Virus record (IMG/VR): IMGVR_UViG_3300018476_000017
Location: 1-45,160 of that record
DNA: 45,160 nucleotides
Strand: one strand, 5' to 3'
Origin: a virus
The first letter of the stretch is position 1. Every line of letters starts with the position of its first letter. The notes beneath the pieces were generated by a model. The model ran no database searches and was not told the origin of the DNA. It worked only from the letters and a program-made list of their open reading frames with translations. Shown one piece after another: positions 11,910 through 33,499 of the stretch. The position numbers and the translations under genes are program-made.

Positions 11910-11944
11910 GGATCCACCAGGAGCGATACCTGACGGATCCACGA

Positions 11945-13975: not shown

Positions 13976-14037
13976 CACGGACGGACGGGTTCGCACTCGT
14001 CCGCCCACTGCCCGACCGGGCAAACGAAAGGAACCAC
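13976..14037 (+). promoter_or_regulatory. Hairpin/SD cassette 6
   Basis: CGGACG/CGTCCG with TTCGC in the loop, GCCCACT, GCCCG/CGGGC with a 2-base loop, then AAACGAAAGGAACC and ATG 14038. Confidence 0.8.
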
Positions 14038-14602: not shown

Positions 14603-14896
14603 ATGGAAACCAACAACGAGACACCGACCACGGTGCCTGCCGAAGTCGAGTTCGCCGCCATCTACTGGGGCTGCGAGTGGGACGAGGAGCAGGTGCCGGA
14701 GATCACCCTGGTCGACCAGGACACCTGGGAGTTCACCAGCGCGGACGGCAACACCTACCGCGTGCTCCCTGGGCCGACCGCCTGGGAGATGGTGCCGGTC
14801 ATCAAGATCACCCAGCTGGCACCGAACACCTTTCAGGTGGACGGCGACGTGCTCACCCTCAACCGCGAGGACAAGGTGATCACCCGTGCTCGGTGA
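14603..14896 (+). CDS. Hypothetical protein
   Basis: 97 residues, METNNETPTTVPAEVEFAAI then YWGCEWDEEQVPEITLVDQD. Acidic, beta-rich, no family recognised. The SD of the cassette lies 3-4 bases before ATG. Confidence 0.7.
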   Translation: METNNETPTTVPAEVEFAAIYWGCEWDEEQVPEITLVDQDTWEFTSADGNTYRVLPGPTAWEMVPVIKITQLAPNTFQVDGDVLTLNREDKVITRAR

Positions 14897-15074
14897 TATC
14901 TGCCAGTACGTCGACCCACTGACCGACAGCAACTGCGACCAGCTGGTCGAAACGGAGGTCGACGGCGGCGACGTGGACGAACCACTGCGCTGCTGCTTGT
15001 GGCACGGACTGGTCTGCTTTGCAGGCGCGGTCAAGTGCGGCGTGGCCGACGTGGAGATGCGTCGCGCCGAGTGA
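14886..15074 (+). CDS. Small Cys-rich protein
   Basis: 62 residues from GTG 14886, overlapping the preceding gene by 11 bases. Cys and His residues (ICQYVD, SNCDQL, CCLWHGLVCF, KCGVAD) suggest metal binding. No SD is obvious, so expression by coupling is assumed. It fills what would otherwise be a gap before the next cassette. Confidence 0.55.
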   Translation: MLGDICQYVDPLTDSNCDQLVETEVDGGDVDEPLRCCLWHGLVCFAGAVKCGVADVEMRRAE

Positions 15075-15142
15075 AATACGGACGGACACATTCGCTGTGT
15101 GTCCGCCCACTCCCCCGCTGGGGGATACGAAAGGAACCAACC
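15075..15142 (+). promoter_or_regulatory. Hairpin/SD cassette 8
   Basis: CGGACACA/TGTGTCCG with loop TTCGCTG, GCCCACT, TCCCCC/GGGGGA with loop GCT, then TACGAAAGGAACC and ATG 15143. Confidence 0.85.
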
Positions 15143-15334
15143 ATGCCCGAACCACACACCGAGGTCTCGGTGCCGCGCCTGCCACCCTGCGACATCTGCG
15201 GGGACACAGCGAGCTACGACGCCAAGACCACACACGGACCCTGGGGCTACCTGTGCAGCGATCACTTCGTTGAGTACGGGATCGGCCTCGGCCTGGGATT
15301 GGGGCAACGCCTGGTGCTCGCTACACCGGGTTGA
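15143..15334 (+). CDS. Small zinc-ribbon-like protein
   Basis: 63 residues. LPPCDICGDTASYDAKTTHG then GPWGYLCSDHFVEYG gives a CxxC plus a later C/H pair, a pattern common in actinophage small proteins. The C-terminus is Gly/Leu-rich (GLGLGLGQRL). Function unknown; zinc binding is likely. Confidence 0.7.
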   Translation: MPEPHTEVSVPRLPPCDICGDTASYDAKTTHGPWGYLCSDHFVEYGIGLGLGLGQRLVLATPG

Positions 15335-15510
15335 CCCCCACAAGATGTGCTGCTCCTGGCACACGAACACGGCGGTCAGGGACGGCCACCCTGTAGAGCG
15401 CGGACGGGCGCTCTGCGGATGGGCTGTGTTCTCTCCCACAGGTAGCGGTCCGCAGGGTGCTCACCTCACCCTGCGGATACTCCTGCGCAAGCAGGCAACG
15501 AAAGGAACCA
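15335..15510 (+). promoter_or_regulatory. Hairpin/SD cassette 9 in a longer gap
   Basis: The last 70 bases hold CCGCAGGGTG/CACCCTGCGG and CCTGC/GCAGG closed by a GCAA loop, then CAACGAAAGGAACC and ATG 15511. The first 100 bases contain only a 17-codon frame (from 15345), which is not supported as a gene. Confidence 0.75.
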
Positions 15511-15750
15511 ATGGACACAACCGAAGCACTCGGGCGGGTGATCGCTGCACACCGGATCATGCTCGGCCAACCGCGCAAGTGGCTGGCCGAACAGGCAGGC
15601 ATCAGCTATCCGTACATCTGCGAGATCGAGAACGGCACCAAGGAAGCCAGCCTGACCACCCTGGCTGGCGTAGCACGAGCACTCGGCGTGCAGTTGTCGG
15701 TGTTGCTGGCCAGGGCCGAGCGGCTGATCGCCGGTGACTGCCAGCTGTGA
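15511..15750 (+). CDS. XRE-family (Cro/CI-like) helix-turn-helix regulator
   Basis: 79 residues. The HTH covers about 8-65: LGRVIAAHRIMLGQPRKWLA, EQAGISYPYICEIENGTKEA and LTTLAGVARALGVQLSVLL, with the conserved ISxxYIxxIENGxxxxxLxTLxxIAxAL pattern. It is a small DNA-binding protein that may control early or late promoters in this phage. It is the only classical XRE protein in the window. Lack of a C-terminal domain suggests a Cro-like or transient regulator more than a full CI repressor. Confidence 0.85.
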   Translation: MDTTEALGRVIAAHRIMLGQPRKWLAEQAGISYPYICEIENGTKEASLTTLAGVARALGVQLSVLLARAERLIAGDCQL

Positions 15751-15817
15751 ACGGACGGGGGTGCATCGCTAGCACCTTCGCCCACTGCCCAAGTCGGGCA
15801 CAACGAAAGGAACCAAC
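15751..15817 (+). promoter_or_regulatory. Hairpin/SD cassette 10
   Basis: GGTGC/GCACC, CGCCCACT, TGCCC/GGGCA, then ACAACGAAAGGAACC and ATG 15818. Confidence 0.8.
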
Positions 15818-16300
15818 ATGACCAACATCATCGACAGCCTCCCCCCGGACGCGCCCCACTGGTACGACAGCGAGCAGTCGATCGTGTATACGACCGACCA
15901 ATCGATGATCGTCAACCTTCGCAATCGCCTGGCGGCAGCGGAGACCGATCACCGGCAGGCGGTTGTCAACGCACGTCGTCTGTCTGCTCGTTGCGAAGCG
16001 ATGCAGGCCGACTTCAAGACCATCGAGCGGCGGCTCAACAGCGAGGCGAACAGCCGCAGCTGGTGCAGCGAGTACGACTCGATCAGTGCGGACATCAACC
16101 GCGAGTTGAGCACGTTCGAGTTCAGCCCGCGCAAGCGAGTCACGCAGGTCGAGTACGTGGTGCGCGTCGACGTGACCTACCCGCAGGACGGGGACTTCCC
16201 CGACGTGCGGAACGCCATCGAGAACGAGCTTGCCGACCTCGGCGGGCGCTGGGACGAAGACGTCGCAGAGGTGAGCATCGCCAACGTGTTCGCACGGTGA
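15818..16300 (+). CDS. Coiled-coil protein, paralogue of the gene at 25364
   Basis: 160 residues. Residues about 30-90 are heptad-like (NLRNRLAAAETDHRQAVVNA, CEAMQADFKTIERRLNSEAN). RSWCSEYDSISADINRELS follows and then a beta-rich C-terminus (VEYVVRVDVTYPQ). The gene at 25364 has the same order with REWCDEYDSFVHSLNTQLS and FTVTVGVTAP. Similar proteins occur in other actinophages with no proven role. Confidence 0.75.
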   Translation: MTNIIDSLPPDAPHWYDSEQSIVYTTDQSMIVNLRNRLAAAETDHRQAVVNARRLSARCEAMQADFKTIERRLNSEANSRSWCSEYDSISADINRELSTFEFSPRKRVTQVEYVVRVDVTYPQDGDFPDVRNAIENELADLGGRWDEDVAEVSIANVFAR

Positions 16301-16368
16301 ACCACAGGCAGGCGTGTTCGCTACACGTCCTGCCTACTGCCGCAAGGCACAACGAAAGGAACCCATCC
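16301..16368 (+). promoter_or_regulatory. Hairpin/SD cassette 11
   Basis: AGGCAGG/CCTGCCT with an inner CGTGT/ACACG and loop TTCGCT, then TGCC/GGCA closed by GCAA (a GNRA-type tetraloop), then ACAACGAAAGGAACC and ATG 16369. Confidence 0.85.
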
Positions 16369-16761
16369 ATGAGCAAGCAACGCACCCCAAGCGACCCGCA
16401 CACCCGCCAGGGTGACGCGGGTGGCACGCGCAAGAGCAGGGTCAAGCCACTGCGCACCGGCAGCGCGCCGCCCGGCGTGAGCCAGGCAGTGATGCTGAAC
16501 ATGCCCACTGGCCGCAAGGCCGAAGGCATCACCGCGCTGGAGCAGTACATGCGGGCCAACCGGACCAACCGAACCGGCGGCTACACCAGCCCGACCAACC
16601 CGCGCAACAGACGGATCACGCTCAACGTGCATCGCATCAACGCCACGCTGCGCTATCCGTTAGACGAAGCCGAACTCACCAGGCGGCTGGGCTTCTACAA
16701 GCGGGCCGACTACCGGGCCTGCTTGAAGGCAGCCGCCGAGGAGGAGATGGGCTGGGAATGA
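16369..16761 (+). CDS. Basic hypothetical protein
   Basis: 130 residues. The first 80 are polar, basic and probably disordered (SDPHTRQGDAGGTRKSRVKP). The C-terminal part (RITLNVHRINATLRYPLDEA, ELTRRLGFYKRADYRACLKA) may be a small helical domain. No family recognised. Confidence 0.7.
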   Translation: MSKQRTPSDPHTRQGDAGGTRKSRVKPLRTGSAPPGVSQAVMLNMPTGRKAEGITALEQYMRANRTNRTGGYTSPTNPRNRRITLNVHRINATLRYPLDEAELTRRLGFYKRADYRACLKAAAEEEMGWE

Positions 16762-16838
16762 CACACACGCCGGGCGGGTTCGCCCCCCGCTCGGTGTACG
16801 GCCACACGTCCGTGGCATAACGAAAGGAGCAACCCACC
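16762..16838 (+). promoter_or_regulatory. Hairpin/SD cassette 12
   Basis: CCGGGCGGG pairs with CCCGCTCGG (one G-T pair) around TTCGCC, then GGCCAC/GTGGC, then TAACGAAAGGAGC and ATG 16839. The SD differs slightly from consensus. Confidence 0.7.
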
Positions 16839-17120
16839 ATGTCACTGGAAGAACCAGGACCCGTCCACCAGGCGGGTTACGACCGTGGCGCAGCAGACGC
16901 TGACGCCATCGAGTTGACACCGGAGTTGAAACGCCAGTTTCTCGACGGTCAACAGCCGGATCCAGAGGAGTTGTCAGCTAGGTCACCACTGTCCCAACCG
17001 GACGCAGACCTGACAGAAATCCTCGGCAGGGACTATGCCGAAGATGATCCGCACAAGTACGAGCAGGGCTACCTGCTGGGGTGGGAAGAACGCCTGCTTC
17101 AACGCAGCATGAGCGACTGA
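16839..17120 (+). CDS. Acidic hypothetical protein
   Basis: 93 residues, acidic (DADAIELTPELKRQFLDGQQ, DLTEILGRDYAEDDPHKYEQ) with a final GYLLGWEERLL helix. YDRGAADAD and YEQGYLLGW resemble the repeated YxxGYxxG-like pattern seen in small phage proteins. Function unknown. Confidence 0.7.
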   Translation: MSLEEPGPVHQAGYDRGAADADAIELTPELKRQFLDGQQPDPEELSARSPLSQPDADLTEILGRDYAEDDPHKYEQGYLLGWEERLLQRSMSD

Positions 17121-17200
17121 GGCCGTCCCCCTCAGTCGGCCCGCGTCATCCTCGCAGGGTGGCGCGGGCACTCCCGCAAGGGACAACGAAAGGAGAACAC
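17121..17200 (+). promoter_or_regulatory. Hairpin/SD cassette 13
   Basis: CCCGCG/CGCGGG with a long loop, then TCCC/GGGA closed by GCAA, then ACAACGAAAGGAG and ATG 17201. Confidence 0.75.
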
Positions 17201-17557
17201 ATGACCGCCATTCAAGCGTGGGTCGAACAAGACCTGCTGGCCACACCACCCGGCCACTGGACGACCTACGGCGATAGCTCGATCCGCCTGTACGGACACA
17301 AGCGCGCGGCACGGGCAATCGGTAATGCGCTGCGCGCCGTGGTGGGCAGACACGAACACCCAACGACATGCCCGCTACCCGTGTGGCGAATGCGCATCAG
17401 CACGGGAGAGTTCACCGTGTCGCCAGCGTCGGACTTTCACCCCAGCGCTGCCGACCGTGCCCGCCTGCGTCGTGAGAACGACGTGCTGTGGGTGCAAGAG
17501 GGTGGGCGCATGATCGACGGCGTGCCAGACCCAGCACTGCGCAGGCCGGTGGACTGA
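17201..17557 (+). CDS. Alkyltransferase-like (MGMT DNA-binding domain) protein without catalytic Cys
   Basis: 118 residues. TPPGHWTTYGDSSIRLYGHK and RAARAIGNALRAV match the helix-turn-helix and Arg-finger region of O6-alkylguanine DNA alkyltransferases. Where MGMT has PCHRV and ATL proteins have PWHRV, this protein has PVWRM (about 60-64), so the alkyl-acceptor Cys is missing. ATL proteins bind O6-alkylguanine and flip it without repair. A role in sensing or handling modified bases is possible here because the phage probably modifies its DNA. The family call is from motif reading. Confidence 0.65.
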   Translation: MTAIQAWVEQDLLATPPGHWTTYGDSSIRLYGHKRAARAIGNALRAVVGRHEHPTTCPLPVWRMRISTGEFTVSPASDFHPSAADRARLRRENDVLWVQEGGRMIDGVPDPALRRPVD

Positions 17558-17648
17558 AAGACCTGCGGACTTGGAACCCCCGCACGAACGGGCGTGGCTC
17601 ACTGCTGCGCTCGTTCACCGCCGCAAGGCGACAACGAAAGGAACCAGG
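17558..17648 (+). promoter_or_regulatory. Hairpin/SD cassette 14
   Basis: GAACGGGCG pairs with CGCTCGTTC (one G-T pair), then CGCC/GGCG closed by GCAA, then ACAACGAAAGGAACC and ATG 17649. Confidence 0.75.
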
Positions 17649-17942
17649 ATGATTGTCATAGCGACTCTCGTCTGCATCGTTGGGGCACTGGCCTACGTGA
17701 TTGTTCACGGAGCCATCGCCCTGCGGCGCAAGAACAGAGAGATCGACAGGCTGCGCAGGCAGCGACCTATCACCGACAAACGATGGCGAGCACTCAATGT
17801 CATCGACAGGTGCGATTTCTCCGCAGGGTGTCACGCGCGCAGCCACGAAACTGGCTGTGTGCGTGGGCGGATTGTCGGACCAAGCATCAATGTCCAGCTA
17901 GACCAACTACCGAAAGGAACCGAAGATGACAATGACCGATGA
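17649..17942 (+). CDS. Single-span membrane protein
   Basis: 97 residues. Residues 1-25 (MIVIATLVCIVGALAYVIVH onward) form an N-terminal membrane segment, followed by the basic stretch RRKNREIDRLRRQR. The cytoplasmic part has Cys/His residues (DRCDFSAGCHARSHETGCVR), a possible zinc site. It ends 17 bases inside the next gene, whose SD lies within this coding sequence. Confidence 0.7.
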   Translation: MIVIATLVCIVGALAYVIVHGAIALRRKNREIDRLRRQRPITDKRWRALNVIDRCDFSAGCHARSHETGCVRGRIVGPSINVQLDQLPKGTEDDNDR

Positions 17943-18153
17943 GGTGTGGTGCCAGACCCGCTACGACAGTGGGCTGTACGAGTGCAAGGTCGTCCGCGAG
18001 GGCGACAACGGCACGCTGAGCGTGACCCTGGTGGGCACGATCAACCACGTGCTGCACGACGAGAAGGTCAAGTGCGACCGGGCCGACACCGACAAGTGGC
18101 GCACCCGTTGCGAAGAAGTGATCAGCAATCCTGATCTGCGGACCCGCCGATGA
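17926..18153 (+). CDS. Hypothetical protein
   Basis: 75 residues, MTMTDEVWCQTRYDSGLYEC then a beta-rich stretch GTLSVTLVGTINHVLHDEKV. ACCGAAAGGAACC lies 4 bases before ATG, without hairpins. It overlaps the membrane-protein gene by 17 bases and is ATGA-coupled to the next gene. Confidence 0.7.
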   Translation: MTMTDEVWCQTRYDSGLYECKVVREGDNGTLSVTLVGTINHVLHDEKVKCDRADTDKWRTRCEEVISNPDLRTRR

Positions 18154-18521
18154 GCTTCGTAATCGAGAAGCTGATCGCCTTCGTGGCGATAGGTGACGAC
18201 GGGGACGAGGGGGTGATCGCCTTCCTCGATGGGGATATGTGGGTGCCACTGATCTGCTCATACGGCGACGTAGAGCGGACCACCCACCTGCAACGCATGG
18301 CCCAAGTGCTGTGCGATCAGACCAAGCAGGAGATCAAGGTGTTGACCTTCGCCGGGAGGCGACTGGTCGACACGCTTGAGCCACGGGTTGAACCCGAACC
18401 GGACATCGTGCCGGTGTGCGAAGGCTGCGGAACCCCCGCCGTGTGGCGCGACACCCACTGGGAGACAGCCCACGAACCAGGGTGCCCGTGGATGGAAGGC
18501 AGGGAGCGCTATGTCGAGTGA
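18150..18521 (+). CDS. Hypothetical protein with zinc-ribbon-like C-terminus
   Basis: 123 residues. N-terminal half is alpha/beta (EKLIAFVAIGDDGDEGVIAF). The C-terminus has VCEGCGTPAVWRDTHWETAH followed by PGCPW, giving C-x2-C, H, H and C. Zinc binding is likely; function unknown. Confidence 0.7.
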   Translation: MSFVIEKLIAFVAIGDDGDEGVIAFLDGDMWVPLICSYGDVERTTHLQRMAQVLCDQTKQEIKVLTFAGRRLVDTLEPRVEPEPDIVPVCEGCGTPAVWRDTHWETAHEPGCPWMEGRERYVE

Positions 18522-18744
18522 ACCAGACCCCGACTGGAACGACCGCATGAACGCGCTCATCGGCACCGGCATGTTGGCCGGGCTGCTGATGCAGAGCGAC
18601 CACGTGATGGTCGAAGCCGTGCTCGACGGGGAGAGCTTCACCAACCAACTGGTGATTCGCTTCCCTGACTTGCCGAGCTGGGGCATGTCGCGCCGCGGCT
18701 ACCTGATCACGGTCAGCATCCCGCCTGCCAAGGAGGACACATGA
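18511..18744 (+). CDS. Hypothetical protein
   Basis: 77 residues from ATG 18511, overlapping the previous gene by 11 bases. DWNDRMNALIGTGMLAGLLM is a helix and LVIRFPDLPSWG a beta segment. GGGAGC lies 3 bases before the ATG. No family recognised. ATGA-coupled to the next gene. Confidence 0.65.
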   Translation: MSSEPDPDWNDRMNALIGTGMLAGLLMQSDHVMVEAVLDGESFTNQLVIRFPDLPSWGMSRRGYLITVSIPPAKEDT

Positions 18745-18956
18745 ACTGGACGCAGGTTTCGTGCGGCCCCTGCTGGCGCATCCAGCGGCCGGACATTCCC
18801 GAGCCGGTGCGGGTCATCCCACCACGGGGGCTGGCCGAGCCGTTCCTCAGCAGCGTGCGATGCAGCTGGTGCGACCAACCGACCAACAGTGGCATCTACT
18901 TCCGGGCACACCCGGACACGGTGCCCTTCCCGCAGCCGGAGGACGATGAGGACTGA
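18741..18956 (+). CDS. Small zinc-knuckle protein
   Basis: 71 residues with two CxxC pairs, SCGPCWRI and RCSWCDQP, in the usual spacing of a zinc ribbon. Acidic tail. GGAGG precedes the ATG. Function unknown. Confidence 0.7.
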   Translation: MNWTQVSCGPCWRIQRPDIPEPVRVIPPRGLAEPFLSSVRCSWCDQPTNSGIYFRAHPDTVPFPQPEDDED

Positions 18957-19182
18957 ACGACGACGGGGCGACCGCCCGCCTATCCACCTGGTGTGGGCGG
19001 CAAACAACCTGTCCACCGTGTGCGGCGAGGAGTACCCGCGCTTGCGCATCCCGGTGGACACCAAGGACACCCACCCGGTGCTCATCAACGACCCCCTGTT
19101 CTGCGATGCCTGTGTGAAGGGCATCAAGAAGGGAGTCAAGGCTCCGCCCAGGCGCAAGCAGGAGCGGGGAAAGATGTGGTGA
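18946..19182 (+). CDS. Small zinc-ribbon-like phage protein
   Basis: 78 residues from ATG 18946 with GGAGG upstream. PPIHLVWAANNLSTVCGEEY and NDPLFCDACVKGIKKGVKAP are the Cys-containing halves, with a basic C-terminus (RRKQERGK). Overlaps the previous stop by 11 bases. Function unknown. Confidence 0.65.
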   Translation: MRTERRRGDRPPIHLVWAANNLSTVCGEEYPRLRIPVDTKDTHPVLINDPLFCDACVKGIKKGVKAPPRRKQERGKMW

Positions 19183-19263
19183 CGTGACACCACGACCCGG
19201 CAGGCACTCACACGCCTGCCGGGTACGACGCGCAACCGTTGCGCGCACAACGAAAGGAACCAC
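19183..19263 (+). promoter_or_regulatory. Hairpin/SD cassette 15
   Basis: ACCCGGCAGGC/GCCTGCCGGGT, a perfect 11-bp stem, then GCGCAAC/GTTGCGC with a 1-base gap, then ACAACGAAAGGAACC and ATG 19264. Confidence 0.85.
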
Positions 19264-19473
19264 ATGGACCGATCACCGCAAGGCAGGCGCGTCCGTTTGA
19301 TCAGCACGTCGGACCCGTACACCACCCAGCTGAAGCCGGGTGACGAGGGCACCGCACTGTGGGTAGACGACATGGGCACGCTCCACGTCGAGTGGGACGT
19401 TGGCTCCAACCTGGGGATGATCCCAGGCGAGGACCACTGGGAGTTCATCAACGATGATCACCCTGTCGAGTGA
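19264..19473 (+). CDS. DUF4314-family protein
   Basis: 69 residues. RRVRLISTSDPYTTQLKPGD, EGTALWVDDMGTLHVEWDVG and SNLGMIPGEDHWE match the DUF4314 pattern, a small SH3-like beta barrel common in actinophages and in plasmid or conjugative elements. Its molecular role is not known. Full family length. Confidence 0.85.
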   Translation: MDRSPQGRRVRLISTSDPYTTQLKPGDEGTALWVDDMGTLHVEWDVGSNLGMIPGEDHWEFINDDHPVE

Positions 19474-19582
19474 TGAGTTGAGCCAAGCCTGCGTGCAAGC
19501 GCGGGTGTGGCTCACCCACGAGTTCAACCTGGCGCACGCGCGAGTGCGTGCCTGGGACATCAACCCAACGAAAGGAACAGAC

Positions 19583-19804
19583 ATGCCGAGGTACTTCACG
19601 TGTCCGGTGGGCGGCTTGCTCATCGGTGACGTATGGATGCAGTCCGGCGACGAGGTGGTCATCACCGAGTTGCCGGAGGTGTTCGATGACGACGGCACCG
19701 AACGTGTGCGCATTCATGGGCGCATCGTCAAGGGCTGGGGCAAGAGCAACAAGATTCGCCGGTGGGTGTTCATGCCCACACAGACCTTAGAAGTGAGGCG
19801 CTGA
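19583..19804 (+). CDS. Hypothetical beta-rich protein
   Basis: 73 residues from ATG 19583, which follows AACGAAAGGAAC. The same frame is open back to ATG 19454, giving 43 more residues, but the SD supports the shorter form. PRYFTCPVGGLLIGDVWMQS and RVRIHGRIVKGWGKSNK suggest a small barrel. No hairpins precede it. Confidence 0.65.
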   Translation: MPRYFTCPVGGLLIGDVWMQSGDEVVITELPEVFDDDGTERVRIHGRIVKGWGKSNKIRRWVFMPTQTLEVRR

Positions 19805-20109
19805 TGGCGACCAACCCGTTGATGGCGCAGTACATGCGCTGCCGAACACTGGGCCACCAGTGGGACGACATACCCGCCGAGAAGAAAGGAACCTTTGGCG
19901 ACCCGTTGTGGTGTCGGTGCCTGCGCTGTGCGACTGTGCGCATGGATGAGATCGGCGGCGGCGGCAAGCTGATCAAGCGCAAGTACCAGTACCCCGATGG
20001 CTACCAGCGAGCCTGGACCACCGACGCTGGCAACCCCAGCCGGGCTGACTTCAGGGAGATGCTGCTGATGCAGCGCATTCGTGAAGCCAGGAAGCGGAGG
20101 GCGTCGTGA
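19804..20109 (+). CDS. Zinc-ribbon phage protein
   Basis: 101 residues. YMRCRTLGHQWDD, then LWCRCLRCATVRMDEIGGGG and YQYPDGYQRAW match a family frequent in actinophages, with CxxxGHxW and CxCLRC zinc ligands. TGATG overlap with the preceding gene. Function unknown. Confidence 0.75.
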   Translation: MATNPLMAQYMRCRTLGHQWDDIPAEKKGTFGDPLWCRCLRCATVRMDEIGGGGKLIKRKYQYPDGYQRAWTTDAGNPSRADFREMLLMQRIREARKRRAS

Positions 20110-20465
20110 ATCTCAAGTGTCGATTCAACCCCGAACACACCGGCCCGTTCAGCAATGCGGTGGTGCTCGCCCAGCACTACCAGGCCGAGCATCCGGACGA
20201 GTACACGCCCAAGGTCAAGGTCGAGTGCAAGGTGTGCGGCAAGCAGGTGGGCGATCTGCCCCAGCACATGAAGAAGTCGCACAAGACCGTGGCCGTGGTC
20301 AAGGCGGACCCCGAACCACCCGTGCGCTGGGCGGCGGACCACATCGTGTTGCCGGTGGTGACCGAGCTGGCCGGTGGCAAGAAGGGCGTGGTCCCCGTCG
20401 CCAAGATGGCGGCGATCTTTGAGTGGCGCGACGCCACGCAGAAGATGCTGGACGACGTGCAATGA
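20106..20465 (+). CDS. C2H2-like zinc-finger protein
   Basis: 119 residues from GTG 20106, overlapping the previous stop. LKCRFNPEHTGPFSNAVVLA then QHYQAEHP forms one possible finger, and VECKVCGKQVGDLPQHMKKS then H forms a clear C2H2 finger. The C-terminal half (IVLPVVTELAGGKKGVVPVA) is of unknown fold. Nucleic-acid binding is likely. Confidence 0.7.
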   Translation: MNLKCRFNPEHTGPFSNAVVLAQHYQAEHPDEYTPKVKVECKVCGKQVGDLPQHMKKSHKTVAVVKADPEPPVRWAADHIVLPVVTELAGGKKGVVPVAKMAAIFEWRDATQKMLDDVQ

Positions 20466-20599
20466 GGTGGCTCCGCTATCACTGGTGGATGCTCAACAGT
20501 CCTCGCTCTGTGTGGATTGACCGCATCTACGACGCCCACCGCGCTGGCTACAGCGACATGTATCGCTACTGGGATGAGCAGATTCGGGGCAAGCAATGA
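20462..20599 (+). CDS. Very small Trp/Tyr-rich protein
   Basis: 45 residues, MRWLRYHWWMLNSPRSVWID then RIYDAHRAGYSDMYRYWDEQ. Both ends overlap neighbours as ATGA, which supports it. Aromatic and basic; function unknown. Confidence 0.65.
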   Translation: MRWLRYHWWMLNSPRSVWIDRIYDAHRAGYSDMYRYWDEQIRGKQ

Positions 20600-20958
20600 A
20601 GGGCATCGCGATCGTCATGGAAACCGCCGACCTGTTCGCCTTCTCCACGGTGTTGCCATCGTGGGAGGGCGACTTCGCCAAGCTGCAAGAGACACTGGGC
20701 GGCTGGGTGGAGGTGGTCCCCAGCGATGGGCGGTGCACCTTCTGGTGCAACGAGGACGGCAAGGGCACCGGCCTGCCCAGGAACTACGTGGCCGAGATGG
20801 TGTGGAAGTACTTCGACATCTACGGCTGCCTGAGTGCAGGCGACTGGCTGGCGGGCAACATCATCATCACTGGCCCAGCCGATGAAGAAGGCACCACTAC
20901 CGACATCAGCGACGACATGTGGATGTTCATCATGTCCAACATCTTGGGGGGTGGGTGA
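20596..20958 (+). CDS. DUF3846-like protein
   Basis: 120 residues. LGGWVEVVPSDGRCTFWCNE, DGKGTGLPRNYVAE and SAGDWLAGNIIITGPADEEG match the DUF3846 pattern (NEDGK, a Leu-Pro-x-N turn, then GxxIITG). The family is common in phages and mobile elements without a known activity. ATGA-coupled to the gene before. Confidence 0.75.
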   Translation: MKGIAIVMETADLFAFSTVLPSWEGDFAKLQETLGGWVEVVPSDGRCTFWCNEDGKGTGLPRNYVAEMVWKYFDIYGCLSAGDWLAGNIIITGPADEEGTTTDISDDMWMFIMSNILGGG

Positions 20959-21257
20959 TGAAGTGGACCATGCAGGTGATGTTCACCGACTTCCAATGCG
21001 AGATGATTGGTCTACCACTGGGGTCGATTGGGTACATCAGTGCATACGACGTGAACGCACGTGGTGGCATAGGCGAAGCCGAGGTCACACTCGACATCGA
21101 GGAGGCCATCCTGTGGGACACGGCACGCGAAGTGCTGCAAGCCTGGCGCACGCAGTCGACGGTGCGGCCGATCCGTGGGGACGGGCAGCCCAATCGTCCG
21201 CTGTCGGCCTACACCATCACGGTGCTGCCGGTGCCTGGTCCGTCACACACACAGTGA
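20958..21257 (+). CDS. Hypothetical protein, last gene before the lysis cassette
   Basis: 99 residues from ATG 20958 (TGATG overlap). MKWTMQVMFTDFQCEMIGLP at the start, then ARGGIGEAEVTLDIEEAILW. No family recognised. Its 3' end overlaps the convergent collagen-like gene by 41 bases. Confidence 0.65.
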   Translation: MKWTMQVMFTDFQCEMIGLPLGSIGYISAYDVNARGGIGEAEVTLDIEEAILWDTAREVLQAWRTQSTVRPIRGDGQPNRPLSAYTITVLPVPGPSHTQ

Positions 21258-26343: not shown

Positions 26344-27831
26344 ATGCCAAAGAAGAAAGAGGAACTCGATCCCGATTCCCCCGAGGGCATTCGCCAGCAG
26401 CAAATGCAGCTGCTCGCGGAAGTCGGCGGGAAGCTGTTGGGCGAGGAAGACATCACCTTCTCCGGCACGAAGTTCGTACTGCCCGCGAAGCTGGACCTGG
26501 AGCAAGCAATTGAGTTCCTGGCACAGCGTCAAGAGGATGAAGAAACCGTCAACCGATTCCAGAAGGAGTTCAAGTACCGCCCGCTCGATGGAGCGCGCGC
26601 AACGATGAACGCCATCAAGGAGACGTTCGGTTTCACCTTGGGCAAGACGATCTACTCGTTCTTCGGAAACACGCCACCCACCTTCATCGACTGCCGCTTC
26701 GGCCCAGGCCGGAACGACACCGAGCAGGTGCCGTGGGGTGCGATGCAGATTCCTGGCTTCCGCAACACGGTCGTGTACCTGGGTAACACCAACCACGCCG
26801 AACTCGGGAGCATCTTCCACATTCGCGTCGAAGCGCCACGCAAGTATCGGTGGCACATCGAAGGTCTGTTCAGGTTGATCGAGAAGCATCTCTCTGAGAA
26901 CTCGATCTACAAGGGCAAGGCAATCGACGGCGCGGAGGAACCCAACTTCCTGGACCCGTCATCGGTCAACCCGGCCGATGTCGTCTACACCCAGGAAGTC
27001 GTCGCGCAGTTGGAGGCCAACGTGTGGTCGCCAATCAAGCACGCCGACATGCTGACCTCACTCGGTCAGCCGGGCAAGCGGACCGTCTTGTTTGAGGGTC
27101 CGTATGGCACGGGCAAGTCGCTCGCAGCGTTGCTCACCGCACAGGTGGCCATCGCCAACGGGTGGACGTTCTTGCTGTGCCGCCCTGGGAAGGACGACCT
27201 GAACGTGACCATGCAGACGGCGCGCATGTACCAGCCCGCCGTCGTGTTCTTCGAAGACCTCGACACGGTTGCCCAGCCGGGCAGCGGTGACGACGTGTCG
27301 AAGATCTTGGACATGTTCGACGGCATCACCACCAAGGGGCTGCAGATGCTCTTGGTGCTCACCACCAACCATGCGGAGCGCATCCACAAGGGCATGGTGA
27401 GGCCGGGTCGTTTGGACGCGGTGATCCACGTTGGAGAGATGGACCGTGCTGGCGTAGAGACACTGACCCGCCGGGTCATTGGCGATTCGCTGCACACGGA
27501 CATCGACTTCGACAAGGTGGCCGAGGCGATGGATGGCTACATGCCAGCCTTCGTCAAGGAGGCGCTGGACCGGGCCATCCGGTACAGCGTCAGTCGCAAC
27601 AACGGGCACGTCGGCCTGATCGATACCGACGCCCTGGTGCTGGCAGCGCATGGCCTGCGCGACCAGCTGCGCCTGATGTCGGAGGCATCCGATGTCGAGC
27701 GCGAGCCAACCCTCGACCGTGTGTTCATGCGCACGATCGAGAAGGTGACCGCCGAAGTTGTCCACGGTGCAGCCGTGCTCGACTACGACGGCGACGAGCG
27801 GTTCCACCTGGGACCGCGCGAAGACAGCTAA
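26344..27831 (+). CDS. AAA+ ATPase
   Basis: 495 residues. The ATPase module covers about 230-430: Walker A GPYGTGKS (252-259), Walker B VVFFEDLD (300-307), sensor 1 LTTNHAERIHKGM and the RPGRLD box typical of classical AAA proteins (FtsH, Vps4 or CDC48 type). Residues 1-220 are a phage-specific N-terminal domain. Classical AAA proteins remodel or unfold protein complexes with ATP. The substrate here is unknown; context (tandem HTH protein, then the modification genes) suggests a role on phage or host nucleoprotein. Confidence 0.85.
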   Translation: MPKKKEELDPDSPEGIRQQQMQLLAEVGGKLLGEEDITFSGTKFVLPAKLDLEQAIEFLAQRQEDEETVNRFQKEFKYRPLDGARATMNAIKETFGFTLGKTIYSFFGNTPPTFIDCRFGPGRNDTEQVPWGAMQIPGFRNTVVYLGNTNHAELGSIFHIRVEAPRKYRWHIEGLFRLIEKHLSENSIYKGKAIDGAEEPNFLDPSSVNPADVVYTQEVVAQLEANVWSPIKHADMLTSLGQPGKRTVLFEGPYGTGKSLAALLTAQVAIANGWTFLLCRPGKDDLNVTMQTARMYQPAVVFFEDLDTVAQPGSGDDVSKILDMFDGITTKGLQMLLVLTTNHAERIHKGMVRPGRLDAVIHVGEMDRAGVETLTRRVIGDSLHTDIDFDKVAEAMDGYMPAFVKEALDRAIRYSVSRNNGHVGLIDTDALVLAAHGLRDQLRLMSEASDVEREPTLDRVFMRTIEKVTAEVVHGAAVLDYDGDERFHLGPREDS

Positions 27832-27893: not shown

Positions 27894-28499
27894 ATGGACA
27901 AGGATCCATACATCGAAACTGCGCAGGCTCTGGCTAACAATTTCGGCCAGGGCGCAGAGGAAATCTACGAACAAGAAGGCAGCGTCGAGCCGGTGCTGCT
28001 GCTGCTGGACGACGATGGGTTGGGCCTGCTGATGCACCCCAGCCGCCTGATGCGTGATCACCCCGGCGAGGCAAGCTCGCTGATCATCGCGGTGGTTGGC
28101 AAGATGCTGCCGGTGCGGTTCATCGGCTTCATTGTCGAGTCGTTTATGACGTCAATGCCCAAGGATGACCCACGTGCGCAAACCATCGAGCGTGGCCAGC
28201 TGACCGAGTGGGCCGAGACCGACCCCGACGTGCGCACGGCCATCTGCACCACAGTGTGGGACGTGAAGTCTCGCGCCGACAGCTACTGCCGACTGGCCAC
28301 CGTGAAGGGTGACCCACGCCAGTGCGAGTGGGACATCGAACAGATCGAAGGCCCACCAGAGGGGTTCATAGACGACCTGTTCACCAAGGCGTTCGCCAAT
28401 GCGCCGCTGCTGGAACACCGCCCGCCCGAGGAAGTCGCCATTGCGCTGATGAACACCGGGCTGGTGACGGGCGCGATGCTGATAGAGGTCCAGCAATGA
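27894..28499 (+). CDS. Hypothetical protein downstream of the AAA+ ATPase
   Basis: 201 residues, MDKDPYIETAQALANNFGQG then an alpha/beta region (EPVLLLLDDDGLGLLMHPSR, LIIAVVGKMLPVRFIGFIVE). Acidic. No family recognised. ATGA-coupled to the next gene. Place after the AAA+ gene suggests a partner, but no motif confirms that. Confidence 0.7.
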   Translation: MDKDPYIETAQALANNFGQGAEEIYEQEGSVEPVLLLLDDDGLGLLMHPSRLMRDHPGEASSLIIAVVGKMLPVRFIGFIVESFMTSMPKDDPRAQTIERGQLTEWAETDPDVRTAICTTVWDVKSRADSYCRLATVKGDPRQCEWDIEQIEGPPEGFIDDLFTKAFANAPLLEHRPPEEVAIALMNTGLVTGAMLIEVQQ

Positions 28500-28932: not shown

Positions 28933-29068
28933 CCAGGGCGAGTTCGATGCGCTGCTTGCCGCACACCGAGCGACAGCCGCTGAAGTGGAGGCGCTGAAGC
29001 TGCGTCTGGCCTACGTCGAGGGCTGGGTGCGCGGCGTACAGGAGGCGCTGCGCAAGGATGAGACATGA
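28916..29068 (+). CDS. Very small coiled-coil protein
   Basis: 50 residues from GTG 28916, helical throughout (GEFDALLAAHRATAAEVEAL, KLRLAYVEGWVRGVQEALRK). It overlaps the genes on both sides (17 and 4 bases). A small oligomerisation or adaptor protein; it immediately precedes the radical SAM gene. Confidence 0.6.
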   Translation: MAEGVSQGEFDALLAAHRATAAEVEALKLRLAYVEGWVRGVQEALRKDET

Positions 29069-30033
29069 CCTACGTCCAGTCGGCACCGTTCAGCATCCAG
29101 GTCGAACCCACCGAGGGTTGCAACCTGCGCTGCGGGTTCTGTGGTATACGCGGCATCCGCGAGAAGGGCACCAGCGGCGCGCTGAGCGGACCGTACAGCT
29201 ACATGGCGGTTGACACGGCGCACGCGCTGGCACGCCAGGTGGCCGCCGCCGGGTGGAGCAGCCGCATTGAGTTCGCCATGCACGGCGAGCCAACGATGAA
29301 CCCCGACCTGCCAGCAATCATCTCGGCGTTCAGGTCGCGGTTGCCCAAGCAGTCGATCATGGTGACCACCAACGGCATCCCGTTGCTCGACCGTGGGCTG
29401 CGCGCCTCGATCCTTGCGCTCATCAACGCCGGGGCCAACACCATCGCCATTGACGACTACGCCCCGCACCGTGTGGCTCCCACGGTGCGGGGCGAGCGAT
29501 GGCCGTTTCCGGTGATGGAATACCCAGCCGACAAGCACGGCAATCCACACGTGCGCTTCTCAGGGCAGCGCATCGTGATCGTGGAGGACATCGCCCAGGC
29601 GGAAACCGGCACTCACTCGACGCTGAACAACCACGCCGGGAGCGCCGCCCCGCCGAACACCAAGCGTCAGGCGCAGGTGTGCACGCTCCCGTTCCGTGAG
29701 ATGAGCGTGCGCTACAACGGGCAGGTGGCTCTGTGCTGCAACGACTGGCGCGGCCAGTACCCCATCGGTGACGCCGCTGCCGACCTGCTGGCGGTGTGGA
29801 ACAGTCCACAGTTCATGGCGGCGCGGCGCATCTTGCTTGCGGAGGGGCGCAAGGACATCACGCCGTGCGCCGGGTGTGACTATCGCGGCACGCGCGTCGG
29901 CTTGCTGCCCCTGCAAGACGGAAGTGGTCGCGCCGAGTTGGGCGAGCCCACCGAAGCTGACCGCAAGATGGTTGCCGACCAAGCAGGCACCACGACCCTG
30001 GCACCAGTGGTGCTGCGAAGGTGGGAGAAGTGA
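29065..30033 (+). CDS. Radical SAM enzyme with SPASM-like C-terminus
   Basis: 322 residues from ATG 29065. CNLRCGFC (C19, C23, C26) is the CX3CX2C motif for the SAM-binding 4Fe-4S cluster. HGEPTMNPDL and MVTTNGIPLLD are the barrel motifs. The C-terminus (VCTLPFREMSVRYNGQVALC and CNDW, later CAGCDYRG) holds extra Cys residues as in SPASM auxiliary clusters. Such enzymes do radical chemistry on peptides, sugars or bases. It overlaps the glycosyltransferase gene by 4 bases, and phage radical SAM genes are known near TET/JBP genes, so action on a modified base or its sugar is the best inference. Confidence 0.8.
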   Translation: MTYVQSAPFSIQVEPTEGCNLRCGFCGIRGIREKGTSGALSGPYSYMAVDTAHALARQVAAAGWSSRIEFAMHGEPTMNPDLPAIISAFRSRLPKQSIMVTTNGIPLLDRGLRASILALINAGANTIAIDDYAPHRVAPTVRGERWPFPVMEYPADKHGNPHVRFSGQRIVIVEDIAQAETGTHSTLNNHAGSAAPPNTKRQAQVCTLPFREMSVRYNGQVALCCNDWRGQYPIGDAAADLLAVWNSPQFMAARRILLAEGRKDITPCAGCDYRGTRVGLLPLQDGSGRAELGEPTEADRKMVADQAGTTTLAPVVLRRWEK

Positions 30034-30704
30034 TCGCCATCATCAGTGCTGGGCGGCCAGCAAACGTCAAGGCAATGAGCGACGTGGGATGGCAGGGCAC
30101 ATGGTTCGTGCCGTATGGCGAAGGGGACGCCTACCTTGACGCTGGTGCCAGCGACGTGATCGAGAGCGGCAACCTGATCGACTCGCGCAACGTGGCGCTC
30201 GACATGGCGTTTGACCAAGGTGACGTGTGCGTGCAGGTCAGCGACGACTGCACCAAGATGCGCCGCCTGCACCAAGGCGAAGCACCAGCCGCGCTGCCGG
30301 GTGAGTTCGTAGCCGAAGCACTCGACCACATCACGGCCAACTGTCGGCTGGTGGGCATCGCCCCGACCGACAATGCGTTCTACGGCGGCGAGAAGGTGAA
30401 GCGCCAGCACTTCTGCGTGGGCGACCTGTTCGTGGCGGCACCCAGTCCGATCCGCTTCGACCGGCGGCTGCGCTTGAAGGAGGACTACGACTACACGGCG
30501 CAGCACATCTACCGCTACGGCGAAGTGGCTCGCCTCGACTGGTGGCTGGTCAGCTTCACGCATCGCACCAACGCGGGCGGCGTGGTGCAGTACCGCACGG
30601 CCGAGGTTGAGCAGGAGTCAATCGCGGTGCTGCGCGAGAAGTGGGGCAACTGGATACAGCCCAACAGCCGACGCGACAACGAAGTGCTACTGCGCGTCCG
30701 CTGA
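30030..30704 (+). CDS. TET-associated-type glycosyltransferase (TAGT-like)
   Basis: 224 residues from GTG 30030 (GTGA overlap, GGGAG upstream). IAIISAGRPANVKAM begins a GT-A fold; SRNVALDMAF and VCVQVSDDC (D72/D73, a DxD-like metal motif) follow, then LKEDYDYTAQHIYRYGEVAR, reminiscent of the EDxD region of this family. TAGT enzymes are encoded next to TET/JBP dioxygenases in phages and transfer sugar to the hydroxylated base in DNA. Its 3' end overlaps the convergent TET-like gene by 18 bases. The family is judged from pattern and neighbourhood. Confidence 0.65.
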   Translation: MIAIISAGRPANVKAMSDVGWQGTWFVPYGEGDAYLDAGASDVIESGNLIDSRNVALDMAFDQGDVCVQVSDDCTKMRRLHQGEAPAALPGEFVAEALDHITANCRLVGIAPTDNAFYGGEKVKRQHFCVGDLFVAAPSPIRFDRRLRLKEDYDYTAQHIYRYGEVARLDWWLVSFTHRTNAGGVVQYRTAEVEQESIAVLREKWGNWIQPNSRRDNEVLLRVR

Positions 30705-31604
30705 GCGCACCTTGCCGCGTTGGTCGTTGGCTTGGGTCGCACGCAGCGCAGCGCGGTGCGCCTCCCCCGCTGGGTCTGCGCAGCAGTGGCTCATCATCTG
30801 CTTGGCGTAGGTGACCGCCGTGAAGCGGTAGCCCTTGGGATGCAGCACGTTCAGCGGCGTGACCCCATGCGTGATGCTGTGCCCGTCGAAGATGGTGATG
30901 CTGCCGTTGGCGATGGGCAGGTACACGTCGTAGTCGACCAGATGAAGCAAGCCACCATCGACGTGCTTTCGGCAACCAATCATGGCCGACCACGACTTGG
31001 CCACGTTACCGCGATCACGATGGTAGGGCAGGGCCGCGGTGGCGTTGATGATGCCACTGGTCCACGGCGTACCGGCGATGCGCCACGGCGACGAGATGAT
31101 CGAAGTGACCGCCTGTGCTGTGTCGGTGTAGGCGTCGGGTGCTTGCGTGCGGAACACATGCTCGGACACCCGGCAGAACTCGGCAAGGCGTTCCATTGCC
31201 AGCGGATAGCGGTCGTTGAACTGGCTGCGGCTGCATCCCCACTTGCGTCGTAGCGGCGCGGGCGGGGCGTAGCCGAACGTGTTGTGAACTACGGCCATCC
31301 CACTGAGTCGTGCTGCACTCGATGGTGTCGAGTACTGGTCCATCCAGTGAACGTTGCGCAATGACGCGGCGAGCTTGTTGGCAAGCGACTGTGCACACAC
31401 CGCGTACACGACCGCGATCTCGCCGGTGTCGGCGTCAACAATGGCGGTGTCGCGGTCGAGTATGTACGCCCCGGCAGGAGGCGCAGGAGCATGACTACGA
31501 GCCTGGGTCTGCTGGCACTCCGGGCAGCGCTTGGTGGGCGTGTACGGAATGAGCATCCCGCACGACACGCCAAGCCGCGGAGTGCAGTGAACGAGCGGTG
31601 CCAT
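30687..31604 (-). CDS. TET/JBP-family 2-oxoglutarate/Fe(II) dioxygenase
   Basis: 305 residues from ATG 31604 (MAPLVHC); a start at 31556 is possible. The double-stranded beta-helix has LPYHRDRGN (H195, D197: the HxD iron motif), a WSAMIG strand, DGGLL, SITIFDGHSITHGVTPL (H246, distal iron ligand) and GYRFTAVTY (R260, 2-oxoglutarate ligand). The sequence HxDxGN, GG and HG-xxP is characteristic of TET/JBP enzymes, which oxidise 5-methylcytosine or thymine in DNA. An N-terminal C7, C15, C27 and C30 set may bind zinc. Convergent with the TAGT-like gene and after the ParB-like gene. Confidence 0.75.
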   Translation of the reverse strand: MAPLVHCTPRLGVSCGMLIPYTPTKRCPECQQTQARSHAPAPPAGAYILDRDTAIVDADTGEIAVVYAVCAQSLANKLAASLRNVHWMDQYSTPSSAARLSGMAVVHNTFGYAPPAPLRRKWGCSRSQFNDRYPLAMERLAEFCRVSEHVFRTQAPDAYTDTAQAVTSIISSPWRIAGTPWTSGIINATAALPYHRDRGNVAKSWSAMIGCRKHVDGGLLHLVDYDVYLPIANGSITIFDGHSITHGVTPLNVLHPKGYRFTAVTYAKQMMSHCCADPAGEAHRAALRATQANDQRGKVRSADAQ

Positions 31605-31648
31605 GCGCCTGCGCACCACGCGCTCCAACGAACTCTGCCCACGTTGCA

Positions 31649-32344
31649 CTACGCGTCCACCGGGAACTGCATGACCTTGCCTTCGACCTCCGGCGCAGCA
31701 GCAAAGTGGTCGGGAATCTCGGCGCACGCAGTGTTGAGCATCTTGTGGACGAGCTCGGCGTTGGTGTCGATGTTCAGGTAGTCGCGCAGCAGTGCCATCT
31801 GTTGGGTCACTTCCTCAAAGACGCTGGTCTCGTAGGGCAAGATGATGCTGCGAATGTCGAGGTCGTTGTACTGGTCGAGGCGGTCGTCTGGCGTTGGTGC
31901 AGAGCGCACGCCGCCGGTGATCTCGCTGGCCTCCACGCCTTGCAGCAGTAGCTCGTAGGCGTTGCGGTCGTAGCCGGTGCCGTCGAGATTGTCTGCCGAC
32001 ATCAACTGCTCCAGCAACTCAAACAGAGCCTCGTCGTTATAGAACGCAAGGTCGCTGGTGCGGTTGTCAGCGAGGGCCAGGCGGGTGGCTTGTACGTCGT
32101 CCACGTCGACGTACATGACGGGAATCTGTGTGGCACCCAGTTCGATGAGCGCCTGGCGACGGTGATTGCCCGCCAGCACGATGTTGGTGCTGCGCTGCAC
32201 GACGATGGGCTGGTAGAACCCGTTCTTGGTGATGCTCGCCTTCAACACGTCCAAGTCGCCACTGCGCGGGTTGCCCTCCCAGGGGATGACGCTGTTGATG
32301 TCGGCCAGCATCGACTCAACTGCTGGGTGGAAGCGGACGGTCAT
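31649..32344 (-). CDS. ParB-like nuclease-domain protein
   Basis: 231 residues from ATG 32344, ATGA-coupled to the upstream HTH gene. Residues about 15-90 are the ParB/Srx fold: INSVIPWEGNPRSGDLDVLK, NGFYQPIVVQ and LAGNHRRQALIELGA, where GNHRR (59-63) is the GxxRR nucleotide-binding box. The middle (ALADNRTSDLAFYNDEALFE) is also typical. ParB-like domains bind or hydrolyse CTP and are often coded beside DNA base modification genes in phages. The C-terminal 100 residues are of unknown fold. Confidence 0.85.
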   Translation of the reverse strand: MTVRFHPAVESMLADINSVIPWEGNPRSGDLDVLKASITKNGFYQPIVVQRSTNIVLAGNHRRQALIELGATQIPVMYVDVDDVQATRLALADNRTSDLAFYNDEALFELLEQLMSADNLDGTGYDRNAYELLLQGVEASEITGGVRSAPTPDDRLDQYNDLDIRSIILPYETSVFEEVTQQMALLRDYLNIDTNAELVHKMLNTACAEIPDHFAAAPEVEGKVMQFPVDA

Positions 32345-32580
32345 TGGGTCGCCTTCTCTTTCTTGATGTTGCGGATGAGTTTGTGTACCACGTTCTCGGT
32401 GATCACGTCGCCACCTTCGGCCACGCTGGCGTCGCTGAGGCGCTCTGCGATGGCGCTCTGGCTCAGCCCTTGGCACCACAGCTTGTAGATCGCTTCGCGG
32501 CGCTTGATGTCGGCCAGCTTGCCGCGCGTTACGAGGCGCTGCGATTCGTCCAGCCGGTCGAGTATTGATGTCCTTGCCAC
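32341..32580 (-). CDS. Small HTH protein
   Basis: 79 residues from GTG 32580, with GGAAGGA 8 bases upstream; an ATG at 32595 would give 84 residues. LADIKRREAIYKLWCQGLSQ and SAIAERLSDASV form a helix-turn-helix, and the C-terminus (ENVVHKLIRNIKKEKATQ) is basic. Coupled to both neighbours. Probably a DNA-binding accessory or regulator of the modification operon. Confidence 0.65.
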   Translation of the reverse strand: MARTSILDRLDESQRLVTRGKLADIKRREAIYKLWCQGLSQSAIAERLSDASVAEGGDVITENVVHKLIRNIKKEKATQ

Positions 32581-33032
32581 TACTTGTCCTTCCATGAACG
32601 GTTGTTGGTGATGTTGCTGATGTTGTTCGGGGAGCAGCCGTACAGGGCGGCTAACGTCACTCGCTTCTCCCCAGCAGCACGAAGCTGACGTATCTGCGCT
32701 ACTTGCTCACTCGTCAGTCGCGCCAACGGGTGCTGATCCCCCCTGTGACGCGTGCCGTGCAGTTCCTTGTCGGCGTCATTGTCAGCGTGCGACTTCCACG
32801 ACAGGTGGCGCTGATTGATGCAGGCGTGCGTGCCGCATGAGTGGGCGGCCTCCATGCCTGGGCCGGGACCGTGCGCCATCTCACAAGCCAGCCGGTTGAC
32901 GTAGTGATGACGCTCACCGTGGAGAACGCGCCCGTATCCATCGTGCGTGAGGCTGTGCGGCCAGACGATGCACTCGTCGGTGGCGGTTGCAGCGAGCAGC
33001 AGGAACTCTTGATACCGCTTCACTTCGACCAT
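32580..33032 (-). CDS. HNH endonuclease (HNH_3 type) with C-terminal HTH
   Basis: 150 residues from ATG 33032. CIVWPHSLTHDGYGRV, the HYVNRLACEMAHGPGPG segment, AHSCGTHACINQRHLSW and ADNDADKELHGTRHRGD are the core of phage HNH_3 homing-type nucleases. A helix-turn-helix follows (LTSEQVAQIRQLRAAGEKRV, TLAALYGCSPNNISNI). The type is usually a free-standing homing endonuclease. Insertion between the winged-helix gene and the small HTH gene suggests a mobile origin. Confidence 0.85.
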   Translation of the reverse strand: MVEVKRYQEFLLLAATATDECIVWPHSLTHDGYGRVLHGERHHYVNRLACEMAHGPGPGMEAAHSCGTHACINQRHLSWKSHADNDADKELHGTRHRGDQHPLARLTSEQVAQIRQLRAAGEKRVTLAALYGCSPNNISNITNNRSWKDK

Positions 33033-33499
33033 CCTGTTCGTTCGATGTTGTCGAGGGCACGGTGCCCCGCGAGGGTGATGCTCCACATGATTGATTCGTC
33101 GTTGCTGCCGGTGTTGTGGTCGCGCCTGCCGCTGTCCATCAGGTAGCCCGCCGCACGGAGGTCGCTCATGCGACGGCGGCATCCTTCCAGCTTGCTGATT
33201 GCCACGCCCCACCCGAGTAACGACAGCGCTGCTTGCTGGTCGGTCAGCACCTGGTTCTTGCGGAACAACGCCAGCAGCTTGGCCTGCCGACTGCGTGCCG
33301 AGAACCTGGCCACGTCGTCGTCGTGCTTGCTTGCCAAGTGCGACGTTTCGGGGTCGGTGGGGCGCGCTGGTGCGCTTGGGATGGGTGGTGCGTGCATGTG
33401 TAATTCCGACGCCACGGCGTCGTACCCGTACTCACTGACGAGCGTGGCGATGACGCTCATCAATCGGTCGTTGTCTCCTGGCCAGAGCATGTCCGACAT
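33020..33499 (-). CDS. Winged-helix-like DNA-binding protein
   Basis: 159 residues from ATG 33499 with AGGAGG 6 bases upstream. RPTDPETSHLASKHDDDVAR, SRQAKLLALFRKNQVLTDQQ, EGCRRRMSDLRAAGYLMDSG and SIMWSITLAGHRALDNI match a family of phage proteins whose central part is a winged helix. First gene of the minus-strand operon that ends with the TET-like gene, so a regulator or recognition factor is a fair guess. A CCGCCA/TGGCGG palindrome lies upstream. Confidence 0.7.
   Translation of the reverse strand: MSDMLWPGDNDRLMSVIATLVSEYGYDAVASELHMHAPPIPSAPARPTDPETSHLASKHDDDVARFSARSRQAKLLALFRKNQVLTDQQAALSLLGWGVAISKLEGCRRRMSDLRAAGYLMDSGRRDHNTGSNDESIMWSITLAGHRALDNIERTGWSK

Follow-up and report, generated by a model that had tools for sequence, protein, structure and literature searches.

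A TET/JBP-type DNA hypermodification cassette with a divergent TAGT glycosyltransferase and a BtrN-like radical SAM partner in a phage genome fragment

The window analysed here is a whole linear IMG/VR virus record (IMGVR_UViG_3300018476_000017; 45,160 bases, 64.8% GC), which carries a DNA hypermodification cassette comprising a TET/JBP-type dioxygenase, a TAGT-family glycosyltransferase, a radical SAM enzyme and a ParB-like protein. The minus-strand ParB and TET genes meet the plus-strand radical SAM and glycosyltransferase genes tail to tail, with the stop ends of the TET and glycosyltransferase genes overlapping by 18 bases (30687-30704). This layout, together with the position and strand of each gene, had been described in a sequence-only reading of the same DNA, and the gene coordinates bear it out. 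The locus comprises the following genes:

29065-30033, plus strand: radical SAM enzyme with a Twitch-type auxiliary-cluster domain (PF04055, PF13186); proposed oxidation or tailoring of a sugar (or base)
30021-30704, plus strand: divergent TAGT-family GT-A glycosyltransferase (PF20691 below cut-off, hhalign); proposed sugar transfer to a hydroxymethyl base
30687-31604, minus strand: TET/JBP-type 2-oxoglutarate/Fe(II) dioxygenase (PF12851, profile, fold); proposed thymine-methyl hydroxylase on DNA
31649-32344, minus strand: ParB-like protein (ParB_N, PF02195, 9e-8); proposed DNA-targeting or processivity factor
32341-32580, minus strand: small helix-turn-helix protein of the ParB-TET operon, start possibly at 32595 (weak HTH_38, 0.0009, below cut-off)
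32580-33032, minus strand: HNH endonuclease-like gene, reading frame open to 33212 (PHROG 59 HNH, 3.8e-18; PF13392, 5e-5, just below cut-off)
33020-33499, minus strand: winged-helix-like protein opening the minus-strand run (Replic_Relax weak at 0.0026, below cut-off; PHROGs 18663 and 1123, of unknown function)

On its sequence and predicted fold, the product of 30687-31604 belongs to the TET/JBP family, as had been proposed from the letters alone. The protein scores over the Pfam cut-off for Tet_JBP (PF12851, 6e-11), its top PDB profile matches are TET2, NgTet1, CcTet and CMD1, and the residues singled out in the earlier reading, H195, D197, H246 and R260, comprising the HxD...H iron ligands and the 2-oxoglutarate-binding arginine, are invariant across 16 diverse relatives and in a second set of 20 sequences. 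A fold search with the AlphaFold model (predicted local distance difference test score, pLDDT, of 88) returned chains of TET2, NgTet1, CMD1 and CcTet as the first 26 PDB matches, with AlkB-type enzymes ranking after them; structure prediction, which might have placed the protein in another dioxygenase family, thus kept it with TET. The 305-residue protein, whose start codon lies at either 31604 or 31556, matches only Tet_JBP in Pfam at E<=1, with neither a J-DNA-binding nor a SWI/SNF domain found. The TET proteins of many RefSeq phages (L002 776-1744 and L045 5914-6699 among the comparison loci, and others) are annotated as 'queuine tRNA-ribosyltransferase', the label of PHROG 6059, which looks like an annotation error. 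The neighbouring ParB-like protein, recognised as such in the sequence-only reading, scores over the cut-off for ParB_N.

The glycosyltransferase, earlier described as TAGT-like, is by profile comparison a divergent TAGT. As a single sequence it matches PF20691, named for the phage TET/JBP-TAGT clusters, at 0.0014 and 19 bits, below the cut-off of 27.5, whereas alignment of its family with accepted TAGTs by hhalign gives a probability of 99.2 over 231 columns. The motifs S74-D75-D76 and K153-E154-D155 are invariant in the family, and homologues 41-46% identical to the window enzyme adjoin TET genes in L007, L008, L155, L156 and L168. In addition, the TAGT part of a fusion protein encoded in L034 scores over the Pfam cut-off.

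The radical SAM identity of the third enzyme is confirmed by Pfam (PF04055 Radical_SAM, 6.5e-11; SPASM PF13186, 4e-10; both over cut-off), by profile and by fold. The C19-x3-C23-x2-C26 motif is invariant across its relatives, and the auxiliary cysteines C206-x17-C224-x43-C268-x2-C271, of which C206 is present in 13 of 14 sequences, are spaced by 17, 43 and 2 residues as compared with 17, 44 and 2 in the four-cysteine Twitch domain that follows the radical SAM core of BtrN, an enzyme of butirosin biosynthesis. BtrN is the nearest solved relative, at 3e-17 by profile and first by fold, the structure model of the window enzyme being of moderate quality (pLDDT 74). As an aminocyclitol dehydrogenase, BtrN performs a two-electron oxidation on its free substrate (PMC9012708), and the relationship suggests sugar oxidation and makes such a role plausible for the window enzyme by analogy. 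A viperin reading, arising from PADLOC matches, was rejected as generic radical SAM similarity.

The radical SAM family is nearly virus-only. A search of 50,697 phage records returned no member, and 35 IMG/VR contigs carry one, with L155 and L168 as further loci found through TET; a single-sequence scan of bacterial genomes returned no relative, and a profile scan only two full ones, L211 and L212. The latter (7914-16563) is a prophage-like set in a cultured bacterium, Actinomadura rayongensis DSM 102126, comprising radical SAM, C5-methylase, ParB, glycosyltransferase, TET, TerS and TerL genes. A glycosyltransferase lies within 2 kb of the radical SAM gene, or is fused to it, in 35 of 38 loci, and the other three are cut off on that side, so that every untruncated locus (35/35) has one alongside; at least four different glycosyltransferase families serve as partners. 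Radical SAM, TAGT, TET and ParB genes occur together, in differing orders, in L007, L008, L037, L155 and L168, and likewise in L010, and L034 encodes at 3318-5060 (plus strand) a 581-residue TAGT-radical SAM fusion adjoining hydroxymethylase-like and PF18723 genes. Other neighbours of the family include (i) a gene between radical SAM and TAGT in L010 (2079-2996, plus strand), whose start resembles a sulfotransferase (FATMRRSGSHFL) with no Pfam match, possibly a further sugar decoration gene; (ii) an FkbM-type methyltransferase gene adjoining radical SAM in L023 (9285-10004); and (iii) a cytidylyltransferase/mannose-phosphate-isomerase-like gene in the same position in L018 (6485-7459), the last two hinting at further sugar tailoring.

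The 35 contigs fall into two groups according to the partner of the radical SAM gene. Six carry TET but neither PF18723 nor a thymidylate-synthase-like gene, and the remaining 29 carry the thymidylate-synthase-like hydroxymethylase gene (29/29), PF18723 (28/29) and no TET (0/29). Since the radical SAM tree allows a single partner switch, this complete partition was dropped as strong statistics, and the case rests more on the TET tree.

Viral contigs scanned with one TET protein as query gave no match, whereas alignment-based scans succeeded: two profile scans yielded 160 TET loci, which together with previously collected loci were dereplicated at 80% to 109. In 104 of these a ParB gene lies no more than 6 kb from TET, and this constant partner is proposed to be a DNA-targeting or processivity factor. 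Kinase/transferase genes accompany TET in 58 of the 109 loci, glycosyltransferase genes in 41 and both in 2 (Fisher p 3e-16); the radical SAM gene occurs in 7, always where a glycosyltransferase is present (7/7, p 8e-4). On the TET tree (107 rows) 27 changes of tailoring type are counted, of which supported branches force at least 17, and the types cluster no better than shuffled labels. The window TET itself falls in a clade of 100% support with L051, of the sugar type, and with L052 and L053, of the kinase/transferase type. The cultured actinophages Tonitrus, LilMcDreamy, LittleMunchkin, MakoManhole, MO526 and Kozie encode TET followed by an amino-acid:DNA transferase (PF18724) and PloopNTkinase3 (PF18751), with ParB adjoining TET in all except the Kozie record; in the window record PF18723 is absent, and local PF18724-type and kinase profiles match nothing. 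Exclusive tailoring branches combined with repeated switching suggest an intermediate common to the two branches, and on these sequence comparisons TET looks like a common supplier of that intermediate to exchangeable finishing modules; if the known specificity of the kinase/transferase enzymes holds, the intermediate would be 5-hydroxymethyl-deoxyuridine (hydroxymethyl-dU).

The window reflects such exchange. Its ParB and TET proteins are 59% identical to the L051 pair, and its radical SAM enzyme and TAGT are closest to systems of the L006/L007/L008 type, whose TETs fall in a different clade; the locus is therefore a mosaic, and the tail-to-tail layout, judging by these sequence relationships, is probably the seam of two modules joined in this genome.

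The sequence-only reading had left the methylated substrate open, as coming from outside the window, from the host, or being thymine; comparison of loci favours thymine, by analogy more probably the substrate than 5-methylcytosine (5mC), with the external 5mC route kept as a rival. In thymidylate-synthase-like proteins, Asn177 specifies dUMP and Asp specifies dCMP (PMC8670742). Each of the 25 proteins of the radical SAM set that could be read at this position has Asn, and Asp is found in the CMP hydroxymethylase MilA. The same proteins are ~40% identical to Pseudomonas and Sphaerotilus phage proteins, including that of SN1, a phage described as very similar to M6, which has hypermodified thymidines (PMC9476957); the commoner partner route of the radical SAM family therefore appears to make hydroxymethyl-dU. 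In addition, the Tonitrus gene set has been named a thymidine hypermodification system (PMC11955845). The observation that no cytosine methyltransferase is visible also stood: no C5-cytosine methylase was found in the window record at E<=1, in the 35 radical SAM contigs or in 14 cultured TET phages (3 + 11), and among 180 loci only 3 have a match near TET, L212 being a further case. Gene absences in the window are provisional, since major capsid and tape-measure genes were not found among its scanned open reading frames and the record is therefore an incomplete metagenomic fragment.

The leading mechanism of the cassette, which by analogy with these systems we consider probable, is post-replicative thymine hydroxylation followed by glycosylation. 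The dioxygenase, with its ParB-like partner, would hydroxylate thymine in phage DNA, its proposed substrate, at the 5-methyl position, giving hydroxymethyl-dU; the TAGT-family enzyme would add a sugar to that hydroxyl, giving a base-J-like product; and the BtrN-like enzyme would oxidise or rearrange the sugar, possibly to a keto-sugar, the whole presumably serving to hide phage DNA from host nucleases. The succession of oxidation, glycosylation and radical tailoring put forward in the sequence-only reading is the best-supported model, in which we infer the chemistry, the identity of the sugar and the order of the last two steps from gene context. The kinetoplastid base J pathway, in which JBP1/JBP2 and a glucosyltransferase hydroxylate thymine in DNA and then glycosylate it, follows the logic proposed here, whereas the window TET shows no J-binding or SWI/SNF domain and the radical SAM step is additional.

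Several observations weigh against this model. The window TAGT by itself fails Pfam's cut-off; the split between TET and hydroxymethylase partners fits one evolutionary switch, so that its counts are not independent; the exclusive action of PF18723, PF18724 and PF18751 on hydroxymethyl-dU rests on the literature and on Pfam names; and an Asn/Asp difference three residues after HxD, considered as a cytosine/thymine marker, was dropped for lack of agreement with the type of tailoring. The arginine of the BtrN LSNRGG motif, Arg152, which we take to be the general base, is replaced by His in the window enzyme and most relatives and by Gln in L010 and L037, so that dehydrogenation is not assured. 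Moreover, of 50 further TET contigs 5 carry a C5-methylase somewhere, and in the Actinomadura prophage L212 one lies between the radical SAM gene, which it adjoins, and the ParB-glycosyltransferase-TET genes, 1.1 kb before ParB; the claim that C5-methylases never accompany this radical SAM family was consequently abandoned. Such an arrangement fits a cytosine route, of a type reportedly described by Burke et al. in 2021, in which a phage or host C5-methylase would supply 5mC, TET would oxidise it to 5-hydroxymethylcytosine, TAGT would glycosylate the product and the radical SAM enzyme would tailor the sugar. The nearest solved folds, TET2, NgTet1 and CcTet, act on 5mC, and the incompleteness of the contig leaves room for a methylase; nevertheless, the absence of this gene from the window, the cultured TET phages and the radical SAM contigs, its rarity near TET, the occurrence without it of TETs 66% identical to that of L212, and the thymidine-modification enzymes fed by close TET relatives make the cytosine route unlikely.

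The mosaic ancestry and opposite strands of the two halves could also mean that ParB-TET makes plain hydroxymethyl-dU and that the radical SAM-TAGT pair arrived separately, acting on another target or idle, and L051 does possess its own convergent glycosyltransferase, only 23% identical to that of the window. The recurrence of all four genes in five other loci with differing orders, the restriction of radical SAM to glycosyltransferase-bearing TET loci and the intact catalytic residues render this independence quite improbable. The last step admits a variant with a real, though minority, chance, in which the radical SAM enzyme would make an unusual nucleotide-sugar donor for TAGT and would not act on DNA: BtrN itself uses a free aminocyclitol (PMC9012708), and the L018 neighbour is of a kind found in sugar-nucleotide synthesis. 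The L034 fusion is compatible with either order, and partnership with at least four glycosyltransferase families is easier to understand if the radical enzyme acts after transfer. Finally, given the versatility of 2-oxoglutarate dioxygenases, glycosyltransferases and SPASM enzymes, the target could be a protein, an RNA or a glycan of the host, but the precedence of TET-type folds over AlkB, the ParB partner and the repeated exchange with DNA-base modification genes make a target other than DNA highly implausible.

A separate modification gene, unmentioned in the sequence-only reading, adjoins the terminase large subunit gene (5946-7346):

7340-8116, minus strand: DpdA, a tRNA-guanine-transglycosylase-like enzyme that inserts 7-deazaguanines into DNA (PF23859, 4.2e-74)

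The protein is ~49% identical to mycobacteriophage proteins, and its sequence indicates that guanine might also be modified in this phage. The window shares DpdA with phages such as Rosebush and Orion (PMC6884629) and differs in that the gene coexists with a TET cassette; no preQ0-synthesis genes (FolE, QueD, QueE, QueC) were seen among its scanned proteins. The DNA of the DpdA-only mycobacteriophage Orion is unmodified, preQ0 being made by neither phage nor host (PMC6884629), and DpdA activity here would therefore depend on the host or on unseen genes. DpdA was found in none of 50 tested TET/radical SAM records, a search that was silent on controls too and is thus weak evidence of absence. 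A doubly hypermodified DNA, in which the radical SAM enzyme oxidises a DNA-attached sugar on hydroxymethyl-dU, for example to a keto-sugar, and DpdA possibly replaces some guanines, is a doubtful prospect.

Besides the cassette, PHROG scans of the window identified a terminase, two portal/MuF-like proteins, tail fibres, an endolysin, an O-like replication protein and an Erf-like annealing protein. The closest cultured relatives of the portal protein are from Arthrobacter and Microbacterium phages, a sequence relationship that suggests an actinobacterial (actinomycete) host. Among the genes that the earlier reading had grouped into one locus, the enzyme identifications hold by profile, tree and fold, whereas the HNH, helix-turn-helix and winged-helix genes have no demonstrated part in the chemistry: the HNH gene is probably a passenger, and the small helix-turn-helix protein has a possible regulatory role. 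Upstream of the radical SAM gene lie an AAA ATPase (26344-27831, plus strand; PHROG 10440, 5e-83; weak IetA similarity in PADLOC) and, between the two, a reading frame of unknown function (27894-28499). Elsewhere, 1106-3520 (minus strand) encodes an 804-residue virion protein (PHROG 859, weak Phage_Mu_F) with a 2'-5' RNA ligase-like domain (PF13563, 6.9e-10), and 10190-21257 comprises an extended series of small reading frames, mostly on the plus strand, without known function.

The locus is a real hypermodification cassette, of which part has precedent. Already described are phage TET/JBP-TAGT clusters, reportedly predicted by Iyer et al. in 2013, and a TET-based thymidine system, the thymidine hypermodification pathway reportedly being that of Lee et al. 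(2018, 2022); the radical SAM partner, the modularity and the pairing with DpdA are new. The window shares with the TET/JBP-TAGT clusters an oxygenase adjoining TAGT and a ParB-like protein, and differs in its BtrN-like radical SAM enzyme, its TAGT below the Pfam cut-off and its tail-to-tail mosaic. Rhodococcus phage Tonitrus and further actinophages (PMC11955845) have a ParB-TET core of the same family, followed there by the amino-acid:DNA transferase and P-loop kinase and combined here with a glycosyltransferase and a radical SAM enzyme. The Arthrobacter phage Altadena/Lilmac1015 cluster resembles the window in its ParB-TET-TAGT order and single sugar-tailoring enzyme, which is a PIG-L, GlcNAc deacetylase-like protein instead of a radical SAM enzyme.

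Altogether, the cassette points to a widespread, base-J-like route in phage DNA, in which thymine would be oxidised in place and finished by interchangeable modules that add an amino acid, a sugar, or a sugar with radical chemistry. The radical SAM partner connects TET systems with dUMP-hydroxymethylase systems and thereby offers a testable answer on the substrate of phage TETs; the L212 prophage is the most accessible experimental system. If true, radical enzymes acting on DNA-borne sugars would represent new chemistry and could provide tools for labelling and sequencing modified bases.

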